32,367 bases of DNA from Chloroflexota bacterium (GTDB lineage: Bacteria; Chloroflexota; Limnocylindria; Limnocylindrales; CSP1-4), in NCBI GenBank assembly GCA_030446555.1, contig JAUJNA010000004.1, positions 205,936 through 238,302 of the forward strand, given 5' to 3'. Every line of letters begins with the position of its first letter. Position 1 is the first letter of the stretch. The notes under the pieces were generated by a model. That model made no database searches and was not told the DNA's origin. It worked only from the letters and a program-made list of their open reading frames with translations. Positions 11,141 to 18,135 of the stretch are shown piece after piece. Position numbers and translations under genes: made by a program.

Positions 11141-11165
11141 GCGTAGGGAATCACCCGATGCGAGG
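11141..11165 (+). promoter_or_regulatory. Dyad element copy E (gcgTAGGGAATCACCCGATGCGAGG)
   Basis: Same sequence as four minus-strand copies; followed after 15 nt by C-TACGGT (-10-like). Confidence 0.75.
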
Positions 11166-11194
11166 GTGCCGGTGGACGATCTACGGTGGCACGG

Positions 11195-11523
11195 ATGTCG
11201 ACTGACATGGAGGTCTCGCCAGCCGCGGTCCAGGACGACGTGACCGCGAGCTTCCTGGTCGAGTCATACACGCCGGATACCGCGTCGGGAGTCGCCTCGG
11301 CACGGCAGGGCGCGCTCGCCCGGTCGAGGCATCGGCCTCACCCAGCGGGACGATCCGCTACCAGGGGTCCATCGCGGTCCCCGGCGACGAGATCGTCTTC
11401 CATCTCTTCCTCGCGAGCGATGCCTCCCTGGTGCGGGAGCTGTGTCGGCGCGCCGGGATCCGCTGCGATCGGATCGTCGAGGCTGTCATCACCTGGACGC
11501 CATCTCGACCTACGCCCCCATGA
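11195..11523 (+). CDS. Small DUF4242-like protein with one apparent frameshift
   Basis: TASFLVESYTPDTASGVASARQGALA then VEASASPSGTIRYQGSIAVPGDEIVFHLFLASDASLVRELCRRAGIRCDRIVEAVITW* in another frame. Confidence 0.4.
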
Positions 11524-11542
11524 CCAGGAGATAGCGCCGCAG

Positions 11543-11590
11543 GCGACTCACTCCGTAGCCGGTCGAGCGACCCACTCCGTAGCGGGTCGA
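11543..11590 (+). repeat. 24-bp tandem repeat x2
   Basis: gcgactcactccgtagccggtcga / gcgacccactccgtagcgggtcga (2 mismatches). Confidence 0.85.
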
Positions 11591-11650
11591 GCTCATGGGG
11601 AAGGCATGTGCGCCCTTTTCCGGGTCGGCGAGGGAGTACGCTGCACTCCC

Positions 11651-14509
11651 ATGCCAGCCCCGATCGTGGGAAGGGACGGCGAGTGGCGCGCCATCGAACG
11701 GCTCCTCGAGGGCGCCGCGTCGGCCCCCGCGTCCTGGTCATGGACGGGGCGCCCGGGATCGGCAAGAGCAGCGTCTGGCGGGCCGCGCTGGCCGGATCGG
11801 AGGAGCGCGGGTTCCGGAACCTGATCTCGCACCGGCTGAGACGGAACAGGGTCTGCCGTACGCCGGTCTGCACGACCTCCTGGGCGCGATCCCCGACACC
11901 GACATCGCCGCGCTGCCGGAACCGCAGGCGCGTGCCTTGCGAGCCGCGCTCTACCGATCGGATCCGTCGGAGGGCACAGCGGACGCCGCAGCTGTGGCGA
12001 TCGCCACCTCCCGCCTCCTCCAGCGCATCGCCGAGCGTGGCCCGCTGTTGCTCGCGGTGGACGACCTCCAGTGGCTGGACGCCTCATCCACGGCGGTGTT
12101 TCGTTTCTGCCTTCGCCGCCTCGGCGCCGCACCCATCGCGGTGTTGATCTCCCGGCGCACTGGATCGCGGGAGGAGCGGGCTCGGACCTGGCGCCCGCCG
12201 ACATCATGGAGCAGGTCACCGTGGGTCCGCTCTCCCTGGGCGCACTCCACGCGGTCGTGCAGGAGCGGCTGGGCGTCCGGCTCGCCAGACCCGCCCTGGT
12301 CCGGCTTCACGAATCGACCGAGGGCAATCCCTACCTGGCGCTGGAGCTGGTGCGCGCGTACGGTCCGGAGGGCCCAGCGGCGATGCTCCAGGGAGCGCCT
12401 CCGACGGAGGTCCTCCGGAACGCACTGGGACATCGCATCGGGTCGTTGCCCAGACAGATGCGCCGGCTGCTGGAGACCACCGCGCTGCTCGGTCGGCCTC
12501 AGCGGTCGCTCCTGGTGCGCCTGATGGGCGACGACGACGACGCCACCGCCGCGAACCTGGCACGTGCCGAGCGCGCAGGCCTGCTCCGGGTCGAGGGCGA
12601 CCGTGTCCGCATCGATCACCCGCTCCTCGCTTCGGTCATCGCCGGTTCCATCCCCACGACCGAGCGGCGTCGCCTTCACCGGCGCATCGCCGAGGCCATG
12701 GACGAGGGACCGAGCGAGCTCGGCACCTGGCCGCCGCCTCCGACGGGCCGGACGAGGCGATCGCCGCCGCTCTCGACCTTGCCGCCGGCGGGGCGGCCGC
12801 GCTGGGGGCCTCGATCGAGGCTGCCGATCTGCGCGACCTGGCGTTGCGCCTCACACCGACGGACCAGCCCGAGGCGGCGGGTCGACGCCGCCTGGCGTTC
12901 GCGGAGGCGGTCTTCACCGCAGGCGACACCGGGAGGGCGCGCCGAGAACTGGAAGACGCGCTACCGGCGCTCGCGGAGCGGGACCAGCGCCTGGAGGCCC
13001 TCCTGCTGCTCGCCAGGATCCGGTGGTACGAGCACGACACGGAGGCGTGCGTGGAGACCGCCGAGCAGGCTCTCGCGGAGGCGGCGGACGACCGAGCCTG
13101 GCAGGCTCGGATCCCACTCCGCACTGTCGTGGATGCTCGACTTCGACCTCACCCGCCGGCTGACCCACGCGACCGCTGCCCTGGAGCTCATCGATCCCGA
13201 CGCCGAGCCGGCGCTCCGCGCTTTGCCGCTCCTCAACCAGGCCTGGACCCGCCTGCTGACCGGACACGGCGCCGACCACGCAGCGATCGAGCAAGGCGAT
13301 CGCCTTCAGCAGGAAGCAGGCAGGTGGGACTACAGCCCCGTCCCCGGGTATTGGGCCAAGGCGATGGACCAGCCGGTCCTGGCGCGCCAGCGATTCCGGG
13401 AGCTACCTCGACCGCGCACGGGCGTCCGGGGAAGAGAGCGCGGTCGCCGGTCTCTTGTCGTACCTGGCCGAGATGGAGTGCTGGGTCGGCCACGTCGACG
13501 AGGCTGAAGTCCTGGTAGAGGAAGCCGTGGAGGTGGCAGAGCAGACGGACCAGCGCGTCTACCTGGCCATCGCCCTCGCCCGACGAGCCCTGGTGCGGAC
13601 CTACCAGGCGATCTCGCGGCGGCCAAGGCTGACGCGGAGCGCAGCCTGCCGCTGGGGAACCCTCCGTTGCTACCGCCCGGGCCTCTTGCCGTCCTGGGGC
13701 TCATCGCTCTGACGGAGGACGACCCCGAGCGCGCCGATGATCTGCTATCACAAGCGGATGCGATGCTGGAGAGCGTCGGCATGCGGGAGCCGGCGAGCCA
13801 CCGGTTCCACGCGGATCACATCGAGGCCCTCATCCGCCTCGGGGAGCTCGATCGGGCCGAGCGGCTCCTGGAGAGGTTCGAGGCACGTGCGCGGAGCGTG
13901 CCTCGGCCGTGGATCGTGGCCACGGCAGCCCGGTGCCGTGGGCTGCTCCTGGCGGCGCGCGGCGACCTGCCGGCCGCCTCGTTCCACGCGGCACTCACGG
14001 CGCACGAGCAGCTCCAGATGCCGCTCGAGCTGGGGCGCACGCTCCTCGCGCAAGGGCTCGTCCAGCGGCGTGCTGGGCGGCGGAAGCTGGCGGAGGAGTC
14101 GTTCCAGCGCTCCGTTCAGGTGTTCGACGCGCTCGGGTGTGGCCCATGGGCCGACCGCGCGCGCGGCGAGCTCGATCGCCTTGGGACCCACAAGGGCGAG
14201 GAGGAGACGCTGACACCCAGCGAGGAGCGGATGGCGCGTCTAGCCGCGTCAGGCATGACCAACCGGGCCATCGCCGACCGGCTGTCGATCAGCCCCAAGA
14301 CCGTCGAGGCGAACCTGGCACGTGCTTACTCGAAGCTGGGCATCCGCACCCGGGCGGAGCTGGGGGCGACCATCGCCCTCACAGGAGGTTCGTCATCATC
14401 AGGGCAGATGACCTGGATCTCCACCGATGCTTCGTTGTTGCTCTCGTCGGACTCCGCCACCTCGTCACGGGAGTCCACGAGCTGGACGGTCACGACCTCG
14501 TTCACGTAG
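11651..14509 (+). CDS. LuxR-family transcriptional regulator, large ATP-binding (LAL/MalT-like) type, multiple apparent frameshifts
   Basis: MPAPIVGRDGEWRAIERLLEGA; LVMDGAPGIGKSSVWRAAL (Walker A); LLLAVDDLQWLDASS (Walker B); C-terminal LTPSEERMARLAASGMTNRAIADRLSISPKTVEANLARAYSKLGIRTRAELGA (LuxR HTH). Confidence 0.85.
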
Positions 14510-14983
14510 TCGGCATCGCCGAGGTCTCTCCAGACACGACGACGGATCCCCCGGGAGCAGGCCGTCGACGCCCGTGCTGCCGCCCGCCCTCCGACATCGT
14601 ACGAGTGGCGAACGGGCCGCTCGGTGCCTGGCCGACATTGCGGATGGTGAAGCCGATGGACATCGGGTTCCCGGACTCGACGGGCGGCGCCGTGACGTCC
14701 TCGATGACGAGGTCGGCCAGCCGGCTCGGTCGGAGGGGCCGTGGGTGGCGCGGTGGGCGGCATCCTCGGCGGTCGGGCGGGTCGGTCGGTGCGTTGCGGG
14801 CGCGGGCGACGGGCGAGTGGAGTCCGTCGTGCCCGGCGCGGCCGTGGGTGGCGCGCTGACGGACGGAGCGGTAGCCGTTGCCAGGGCGGGCGGCACGATC
14901 GCCGAGCCGGACGGCGCCGCCCCCACCTGCACGCAGGCCGTGGTCAGCAGGGCGATGATGGTGATGAACAGGCTTCGCGCCAT
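14326..14983 (-). CDS. CARDB-domain putative lipoprotein 1 (frameshifted)
   Basis: MARSLFITIIALLTTACVQVGAAPSGS; ADLVIEDVTAPPVESGNPMSIGFTIRNVGQAPSGPF; YVNEVVTVQLVDSRDEVAESDESNNEASVEIQVIC. Confidence 0.7.
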
Positions 14984-15045
14984 CGCAGGGCCTCCATAAG
15001 AGGTGGTCGTTCCTTCCACGCCGAACGCTAGGTCGGCCGACGACC

Positions 15046-15069
15046 CCTCGCATCGGGTGATTCCTATGC
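15046..15069 (-). promoter_or_regulatory. Dyad element copy A (one C shorter than the others)
   Basis: cctcgcatcgggtgattcctatgc; gene-sense TAGCGT -10-like hexamer at 15030-15025. Confidence 0.72.
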
Positions 15070-15106
15070 GCCGTGCGGCGCCGCGGACGATGAGACAGGA
15101 CCGACC

Positions 15107-15206
15107 GACTCGCGCGCGCTGCGACAAGCTGCGGCATCCGGTCCGCGCGGAGCTGGGGGCGACGGTCGCCCTCATGGGCACAGAGGGTCATCATCAGGAC
15201 AGATGA
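15107..15206 (+). pseudogene. Vestigial C-terminus of a LuxR-family regulator
   Basis: ARCDKLRHPVRAELGATVALMGT parallels ARAYSKLGIRTRAELGATIALTGG of the intact regulator tail; DNA similarity continues into the adjacent CARDB gene. Confidence 0.7.
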
Positions 15207-15800
15207 CCTGGATGCTCCACCGATGCTTCGTTGTTGGTCTCGTCGGACTCCGCCACCTCGTCACGGGAGTCCACCACGAGCTGGACGGTCACGACCTCGT
15301 TCACGTAGTCCGCGTCGCCGAGATGCTGCACCACGAGGACCCACTCACCGGCGGTCAGCGCGGCCCCACGTCCTGGTACAGGGCGTGGCCGCGCCCTCCT
15401 CCGACGGTGTACGAGTTGGCGACTCGGCCGCTCGCTGCCTGGCCGACGTTCCGGATCGTAAAGTATATGGTTATCCCACTCCCGGACTCGACGGACTGCG
15501 GCCGCCTCGATGTCCTCGATGACGAGGTCAGCCAGCGGCGGCTCCGTCGGTGGCGCGGTCGGTGGCGCGGTCGGTGGGATCGTCGGTGGTCGGCTGGGTC
15601 GGTCGGTGCGTTGCGGGCGCGGCCGACGGGTGCGACGGGCTCCGGCGTCCCCGGCGCAGCGGTAAGCGGGGCGCTGAGGACTGGAGCGCTCGTGGCTCCT
15701 GAGCGGGCGGCACGATCGCCGAGCCGGACGGTGCTGACCCCACCTGCACGCAGGCTACGGCCAGCAGGGCGATAAGGGTGATGAACAGGCTTCGCGGCAT
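15172..15800 (-). CDS. CARDB-domain putative lipoprotein 2 (frameshifted)
   Basis: MPRSLFITLIALLAVACVQVGSAPSGS; FTIRNVGQAASG; YVNEVVTVQLVVDSRDEVAESDETNNEAS. Confidence 0.7.
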
Positions 15801-15860
15801 CGGAGTCGGCCTCCCAAGGTGGTCGCTGGTTTCCACGCCACGCTAGCCGTGCGGACGACG

Positions 15861-15885
15861 CCTCGCATCGGGTGATTCCCTATGC
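15861..15885 (-). promoter_or_regulatory. Dyad element copy B
   Basis: cctcgcatcgggtgattccctatgc; 14 nt then CTAGCGT in gene sense. Confidence 0.75.
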
Positions 15886-15952
15886 CGGTGGGCCGACGCG
15901 GCAGACCCGTCTGGGCCCGATGATGTCCGGGTCAGCCGACTCGGCGTCAGAA

Positions 15953-16572
15953 TCAGGAACGGTCTTCACGCTTCAAGGGGATGGGGCCGTTGTCCTCCTC
16001 GTTGGACTCGACCACCGCGTTAAGCGTATCCAACGTGAGTTCAGCAGGAACGTTGAGATCCGGCGGCCCGCTCAAGTCGGCACGCATCCTGATCGTGGCT
16101 ACTGAGTAAGCCGGCAGCCCCTCGACGACCTCATTCATCACCCGCATCTTACAAACGGCTGAGGCCAGGAACTTCCCAGCGTCCGCTGTTCCTGTGTTGT
16201 CCACGACCACCTGGAGCACCAGCTCGGTCCCGTCGACATAGGCGGACCAGCTGCGGAGCACAAGGTCAGGCAAGGCGGCCTGGGTCGGAGGCGCGGTGGG
16301 GTGCCGTGGGCGGTTCCGGCGGTGGTGCGGTGAGCGGTGCGGTCGGTGGCGCGGTAGGGAGTTCCGGCGCTGGCGCCGTCGACGGTGGTGTCGGTCCGCC
16401 CTCGCGCGGGTTGCGAGGGCGACGTGTCTTGGCCGGATCCGGCGTACTGACACCTGGAGCGCTCGTCGCTCCCGGAGCGGGCGGCACGACCGGGGAGCCA
16501 GACGCGCCGCCCCACCTGCACGCAGGCTGTGGCCAGGAGAGCGACAAGGATCATGGACAAGGTGCGCGGCAT
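15953..16572 (-). CDS. CARDB-domain putative lipoprotein 3 (frameshifted)
   Basis: MPRTLSMILVALLATACVQVG; LPDLVLRSWSAYVDGTELVLQVVVDNTGTADAGKF...LTLDTLNAVVESNEEDN. Confidence 0.7.
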
Positions 16573-16635
16573 CGGGTGGACCTCAAGAGGAGGGTTGCTG
16601 TCCGTTCCACCCGAACGCTAGGTCCGCTGAGGAGT

Positions 16636-16660
16636 CCTCGCATCGGGTGATTCCCTACGT
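16636..16660 (-). promoter_or_regulatory. Dyad element copy C
   Basis: cctcgcatcgggtgattccctacgt; 14 nt then CTAGCGT in gene sense. Confidence 0.75.
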
Positions 16661-16721
16661 CGCCGGGTGACGCCGAAGACCAGGATCGCGCCCGACGATC
16701 TCCTGGTCAGTCCACTCGGCA

Positions 16722-17370
16722 TCAGACCTGGCACGCTGGGTCCTCGAATGGGATGAAGTTGTTGGTCTCGTTGGATTCCAGCACCGTGTTCGTGGCGTCC
16801 AACAGGACCCTCTGAGGTGTGAAACTGCCCGAACCGTTCCCCGAGACCATCAGATCGACCGTCGCTGTCGAGCCGGCCGACAGCCCCTCGGCGACCCCGC
16901 TCGACAGGAACCCGGAACAGATGGCTTCCACGGTGAACCCGCGCCTGCCTCCCCAGCTCCGATGTTCTTGACGTACACCTTGATCTTCAGGACATCCGGA
17001 TCGGCCTCATCGACATAGATGGTCAAGCCTAGGAGGTCGAGATCCGGCATGGCGACCTGGGTGGGAGGCGCGGTGGGGGTTCGGTCGGAGGCGCCGTGGG
17101 TGGCGCGGAAGGCTGCATGGGAGGTTGCGTGGGAGGTTGCGTGGGTCGGTCCGTGCGTTGCGGGCGCGGCCGACGGGTGCGACCGGGATCCGGCGCCCGC
17201 GGCGCAGCGGTAAGCGGGGCGCTGGTGGCAGGGGCGCTCGTCGCTCCGGGAGCGCGCGGTACGACCGGCGAGCCAGACGGCGCCGCCGGCGAGCCGGACG
17301 GGGCCGTCCCCAGCTGCACGCAGGCCGTGGTCAGCAGGGCGATGAGGGTGATGAACAGGCTTCGCGCCAT
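16722..17370 (-). CDS. CARDB-domain putative lipoprotein 4 (frameshifted)
   Basis: MARSLFITLIALLTTACVQLGTAPSGS; MPDLDLLGLTIYVDEADPDVLKIKVYVKNIGAGEAG; LLDATNTVLESNETNNFIPF. Confidence 0.7.
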
Positions 17371-17430
17371 CGGAGGGCCTCCATCAGGTTCTGGTTCCTT
17401 CCACCCCGAACCCTAGGTCGGAGGAGCACG

Positions 17431-17455
17431 CCTCGCATCGGGTGATTCCCTATGC
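17431..17455 (-). promoter_or_regulatory. Dyad element copy D
   Basis: cctcgcatcgggtgattccctatgc; 14 nt then CTAGGGT in gene sense. Confidence 0.75.
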
Positions 17456-17478
17456 CGAGGGTCGCGATCCTCGCCCGA

Positions 17479-18135
17479 TCAGCCCTCTCGGCAGAAGACG
17501 CCGCAGTCGACCTGGACCTGCTGCGCTGCCTCGTTGTTCCCCTCGTCGGACTCGGCGACCTCGTCGTCGGAGTCGATGATGACGCGGATGCTCACGGAGG
17601 TGTCCTCCTGGGGCGCCGCGCCGACCTGGTGCACCGCGTCGAGCGTCTCGCCCGCGCCCAGGCCGTCAACAAAGCCCCGACCGGCCCCACCGAACCGCCA
17701 GACGTATTGGAACGGGCCCGTCGCTGCCTCCCCGACGTTGCGGATGACCAGGCTGATCTCGCCGCTCTCCGTCCACCACGGACTCGGGGCGTTGAAGCTC
17801 TCGATGACGAGGTCCGGCAAGGGCGGCTGCGTGGGGGTTCGCGTAGGCGGTCGCGTGGGTCGGTCCGTGCGCGGGTTGCCAGGGCCTCGGGTACGAGTGG
17901 GCTCGGTCGTGCCCACCGCGGTCGTGGGCGGCGCGGTGACGGATGGAGCGCTCGGCGTCCCGGCTGCGGAGGGGCAGCCAGCGAGGTAAACGGGGCGGCC
18001 GCCGGAGCCGGACTCGGGCGGCTACCTCCCGCGTAGGCCGTGGACCTAAGAGCGACAAGGGCCTGCATCCCCTGCACCGCCACGGCTCTGCTGCTTCTTC
18101 TTCCCGCCGCCGAATAGACTTCGGATCGCGTCCAT
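17479..18135 (-). CDS. CARDB-domain protein 5, N-terminus uncertain
   Basis: LPDLVIESFNAPSPWWTESGEISLVIRNVGEAATGPFQYVWRFGG...DSDDEVAESDEGNNEAAQQVQVDC. Possible ATG at 18135 after AGGAGG, giving MDAIRSLFGGGKKKQQS, then a frameshift. Confidence 0.55.

Follow-up and report, generated by a model that had tools for sequence, protein, structure and literature searches.

A dyad operator predicted to serve a LAL regulator, its own operon and a dispersed set of secreted-lipoprotein genes in Chloroflexota

A short dyad recurs at a fixed distance from a -10 hexamer in a 32,367-nt stretch of DNA from a Chloroflexota bacterium (hereafter, the window). The dyad is probably an operator at which a dimer of the LAL regulator encoded at 11651-14509 activates its own operon and a group of secreted-protein genes from a class II position; we place the probability of this reading at about 0.8. 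The sequence data establish the element itself, the constancy of its position with respect to the -10 hexamer, how rarely it occurs in the genome, and its association with one LAL helix type across the phylum. We infer that the LAL protein binds and dimerizes on the dyad, that it activates rather than represses and that its inducing signal is ATP- or ligand-dependent. In the proposed mechanism, CRTAGGGAATCACCCGATG, located 20-21 nt upstream of TA(G/C)NGT, would be the LAL operator. A dimer of the LAL GerE/LuxR HTH would occupy the dyad, centered near -42, and the bound protein would replace the missing -35 element and recruit RNA polymerase (class II activation). The LAL would drive its own operon, in which a leaderless SCO4226-like gene is followed by the LAL gene, and also a limited number of scattered genes for secreted lipoproteins, most of them CARDB proteins.

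The window contains four exact copies of CRTAGGGAATCACCCGATGCGAGG (gene sense) and one copy that is a base shorter. The 19-mer CATCGGGTGATTCCCTAYG matches exactly at 11142-11160 (minus strand) and at 15866-15884, 16641-16659 and 17436-17454 (plus strand); the fifth copy, at 15051-15068, lacks one G/C relative to the other four. With up to three mismatches allowed, the 19-mer gives a mean of 0.02 matches per shuffled window, and none of 100 shuffles contains four. Mean pairwise identity is 87% over the 24-nt element and 34% over the upstream flanks, which do not align, indicating that conservation of the element extends past that of the duplicated genes. The first-pass annotation had proposed five copies, one of them without a C, at constant spacing from -10-like hexamers, and all five were found where it placed them. 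Its statement that the element is not just recent duplication is borne out in that the 24 nt are kept while the flanks have diverged, but the four minus-strand promoters are themselves related by tandem duplication of paralogous genes. The 7-bp inverted repeat that it described is present as an imperfect dyad; among the four full copies, 5-6 of the 7 positions pair, against 6 of 7 in its description. The features of the region, with predicted functions, are as follows:

11142..11160, plus strand: operator dyad CGTAGGGAATCACCCGATG, an exact match, preceding the SCO4226-like/LAL operon, 21 nt to TACGGT
11182..11187, plus strand: putative -10 hexamer TACGGT, 7 nt before the ATG at 11195 (leaderless start)
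11195..11523, plus strand: SCO4226-like small protein gene, frame broken by apparent indels, matching PF14026 and profile A1
11651..14509, plus strand: LAL regulator, AAA_16, TPR and C-terminal GerE/LuxR HTH, 3' end approximate
14390..14983, minus strand: CARDB-like lipoprotein gene 1, frameshifted (lipobox LLTTAC; CARDB match sub-threshold; paralogy)
15025..15030, minus strand: putative -10 hexamer TAGCGT, by spacing from the operator
15051..15068, minus strand: operator copy one base shorter, CATAGGAATCACCCGATG, before lipoprotein gene 1
15186..15800, minus strand: CARDB-like lipoprotein gene 2, frameshifted (paralogy, translation)
15840..15845, minus strand: putative -10 hexamer TAGCGT, by spacing from the operator
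15866..15884, minus strand: operator dyad CATAGGGAATCACCCGATG, exact match
15955..16572, minus strand: CARDB lipoprotein gene 3, frameshifted (CARDB E = 4.3e-7; lipobox in translation)
16615..16620, minus strand: putative -10 hexamer TAGCGT, by spacing from the operator
16641..16659, minus strand: operator dyad CGTAGGGAATCACCCGATG, exact match
16727..17370, minus strand: lipoprotein gene 4, a paralogue, frameshifted (paralogy, translation)
17410..17415, minus strand: putative -10 hexamer TAGGGT, by spacing from the operator
17436..17454, minus strand: operator dyad CATAGGGAATCACCCGATG, exact match

Read in the gene sense, GCGAGG is followed by 15 nt (16 nt at the 11141 copy) and then by the hexamer, which is TAGCGT at three promoters and TAGGGT or TACGGT at the others. 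For 12 of the 13 SCO4226-like loci, the hexamer is followed at 5-8 nt, usually 6-7 nt, by a start codon of that gene, implying that the SCO4226-like mRNAs are leaderless. This arrangement lends independent support to the earlier designation of TAnnnT as -10 hexamers. The lipoprotein genes have longer leaders than the SCO4226-like genes, together with GGAGG-like ribosome sites. Taking the start codon, 6-7 nt past the -10 hexamer, as the transcription start would place the center of the dyad at -42/-43. No -35 consensus is left at the dyad promoters. An ECF-sigma promoter was considered and rejected because the distance from GGAAT to CGT is ~32 nt, not 16-17 nt.

Each of the four minus-strand operator copies precedes one of the tandem paralogous lipoprotein genes. 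In relatives, CARDB (PF07705) is matched with E = 7e-12 (G004) and E = 3e-14 (C21), and lipoboxes are present in the translations. In the sister species G004, the syntenic lipoprotein gene is intact, has an exact operator copy upstream and adjoins the same RNA-methyltransferase gene. A fifth CARDB lipoprotein paralogue in the window, at about 17470-18060, has another N-terminal start and is without an operator copy.

The LAL joins an N-terminal ATPase (AAA_16, E = 6.3e-9; Walker A GAPGIGKSS in the translation) to a C-terminal GerE/LuxR HTH at about 14220-14380 (PF00196, E = 3e-12, above the curated cut-off). The SCO4226-like frame piece matches PF14026 with E = 8.5e-4, which is under the curated Pfam cut-off, and matches the LAL-linked subfamily profile A1 with E = 1.5e-18. 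Frame analysis of the LAL gene in this assembly gives about 7 frameshifts and 0 in-frame stops; in other genomes, the reading frames of LAL relatives are intact, several of them 857-1064 codons long. Because in-frame stops are absent, we read the frameshifts as assembly indel errors rather than decay, which is likely but not proven. Pseudogene decay of the whole cluster was rejected, given seven phase shifts in the LAL gene yet no stops. Across 11600-14400, the frameshifted LAL gene stands against several intact neighboring metabolic genes, a pattern suggestive of indels having been corrected unevenly in the assembly. The LAL 3' end (14340-14400) is also repeated at 15130-15200, between lipoprotein genes 1 and 2, and marks the tandem duplication unit.

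The 2.09-Mb genome contains only eight strong sites, three of which lie outside the window. A genome search with a 17-mer returned no sites at 2 mismatches and nothing between one and three mismatches. Six matches to GATGCGAGG-N13-18-TANNNT exist in the entire genome: the five window sites and one more dyad site. The motif combined with TANNNT is confined to dyad sites, and the refuting outcome named in the first-pass annotation, a motif widespread and randomly placed, was not observed. The site at C7:99187 lies ahead of a further lipoprotein gene, at an unchanged spacing to the -10, and that at C21:257520 precedes a CARDB lipoprotein gene and has a poor -10. Since sites also occur on further contigs and in other species, the predicted regulon is a small, scattered one, not local as first proposed. 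Its predicted targets are the SCO4226-like gene with the LAL operon, and secreted lipoproteins that are mostly CARDB. At G000:C21:206632, an operator stands directly before the apparent last codons of a lipoprotein gene, ending ...QFKVICDDPDLCI, and looks like what a deletion would leave behind, or like a collapsed stretch of the assembly.

Beyond the genus, the strict 20-mer was not found as a true site. A GTDB-wide exact scan returned one true match (G004) and two unrelated ones, and three out-of-genus matches to the strict form were discarded because they lie within rpsD-like, EAL-domain and other coding DNA. Outside the genus, the nearest LAL belongs to G067 and has CATAGGGTGTCACCCGACG at its stop codon, before a SCO4226-like gene. 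When AGGGNNTCNCCCGAYG-N18-23-TANNNT was searched over 177 genomes of the class, matches were found in eight genomes, and the reversed control gave 0. The order LAL, dyad, SCO4226-like gene is found in G002, G067, G102 and G173, the last from another family. The G047 site precedes a lipoprotein gene and a second G067 site precedes a secreted-protein gene; a G044 match that overlaps a start codon is doubtful and was set aside. A search for LAL orthologues by the ATPase domain alone recovered two distant ones only. With a profile of the LAL-linked SCO4226-like proteins, the search was extended to 400 genomes of the phylum. Outside the class, G261 carries GGTAGGGAAACGCCCGATG-20-TAGGGT between a divergent LAL and SCO4226-like gene, and G305 carries TGTAGGGAAATACCTGATT-21-TAGAGT at a SCO4226-like gene. 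The common form before LAL-linked SCO4226-like genes of other genera, other families and a non-class member is CRTAGGGAATCACCCGATG-N20/21-TANNGT.

The occurrence of the dyad follows the recognition helix of the LAL. Using a scoring matrix trained on G000 and G004 sites only, the dyad was found at six of six LAL-adjacent loci with the helix S(P/R)KT(V/I)EA(N/S/H), with scores of at least 21, versus none of 13 LAL-adjacent loci with other helices, where scores were at most 9.1 (P = 3.6e-4, to be read with the fact that the helix grouping was drawn after the data were seen). Canonical SCO4226 control genes lacked the motif in all 23 cases (scores at most 7.3). The G023 locus (helix SVRAVEANL) belongs to neither helix group and is without the motif. 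Shared descent of helix and motif in related LALs contributes to this link, but G173, from another family, carries the exact 19-mer of the window, whereas genomes of the same family with other helices lack it. These data suggest that the dyad is very probably the binding site of the LAL regulator; also in favor of this, the next closest GerE domain in G000 is only 46% identical to that of the LAL. They strongly support the earlier proposal of a dimeric HTH regulator that binds over the -35, with the LuxR-family protein whose gene lies between the copies as a plausible candidate. The same operator stands beside LALs with this helix type in other genera and families, and it is absent where the helix is different or no LAL is present.

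Linkage is not binding, however, and another transcription factor could read the dyad and count the LAL operon among its targets. The genome encodes other GerE proteins, and a few motif-bearing loci, such as the SCO4226-like genes of G305 and G101, have no LAL within 260 bp. Nevertheless, the motif tracks the LAL helix type over genera and families and is missing beside other LALs and canonical SCO4226 genes, which makes a different reader improbable. It is far less probable still that the copies are by-products of tandem gene duplication or recombination repeats. Such an origin would suit four of the five copies, which stand before tandem paralogues, and the inverted and direct copies on either side of the LAL gene, but it does not fit flanks and spacers that have diverged around 24 near-invariant nt, or unlinked, non-homologous targets with the same distance to the -10. 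It is also contradicted by cross-genus conservation, since the element is present in other families.

The first-pass annotation allowed either an activator or a repressor; between the two, the absence of a -35 consensus that unaided polymerase could use makes activation likelier, as does the dyad center, which would coincide with the usual class II activator position of about -42/-43. The same LAL might instead repress (or switch) its targets from the same operator, with negative autoregulation. We consider this unlikely, although the site does overlap the -35 region, and SCO6993, a LAL of Streptomyces coelicolor, acts as a repressor of its targets and also binds at its own promoter (PMC9628970).

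The LAL operator that we favor resembles known systems in part. The lux box bound by LuxR is an inverted repeat of about 20 bp centered at about -42, where the GerE-type HTH supports class II activation. The predicted operator shares this length and type of HTH and would share the position, but its regulator would be an ATPase-TPR protein without an autoinducer-binding domain or LuxI. SCO6993 is likewise a LAL protein that binds palindromes, two of them in its own promoter; its sites have no common consensus, and the regulators that it represses are antibiotic regulators (PMC9628970). The predicted operator differs in that a strict 19-bp consensus stands before secreted-protein genes and keeps a fixed distance from the -10. 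MalT, the LAL prototype that governs the maltose regulon, is similar in being a large ATPase-HTH protein with sites near -35, and the activator role suggested here would be a further likeness. Its box, as quoted in PMC9628970, is the short asymmetric GGA[TG]GA, while the present sites are dyads; none of the listed operator sites contains GGA[TG]GA, and a MalT-box reading was rejected on that ground. SCO4226 itself is a nickel-binding protein of family PF14026 (PMC4186839). The small gene in the window belongs to the same family but represents a divergent subfamily (weak Pfam scores) that is LAL-linked and apparently leaderless, as judged from sequence.

In the literature searched, which included few subscription journals, no paper was found linking SCO4226-like/DUF4242 genes with LAL regulators, nor any description of a LAL-dyad-SCO4226-like module. 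Tentatively, the LAL, the dyad and the leaderless SCO4226-like protein might form an undescribed Chloroflexota signaling module. The small protein would sense or buffer a ligand, which could be a metal, and act back on the LAL, itself a controller of surface and secreted proteins; we regard this as less likely than not. To our knowledge, the LAL regulators form a very large group, and most are orphans for which neither sites nor targets are known. Here, sequence alone leads to a specific predicted operator, its promoter place and its targets, and it relates helix to site across a largely uncultured phylum. LALs are tied to surface lipoproteins and to a small partner gene, and a regulon in largely uncultured organisms becomes directly testable.

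LAL-linked loci of other helix types are often without a clear canonical motif. Several, however, have their own, different GGG...CCC dyads at the same place (L115, L119, L126 and L127, from G014, G091, G005 and G017), for example ACCGGGAATCACCGGT (G014), GCGGGGTTTCCCGC (G091) and GGGGCGATCACCCC (G017). These differing dyads are material for a helix-to-site code. At L134 (G173:C115), the interval from the LAL to the SCO4226-like gene holds two tandem operators, each of which is followed by TACGGT at 19-21 nt.
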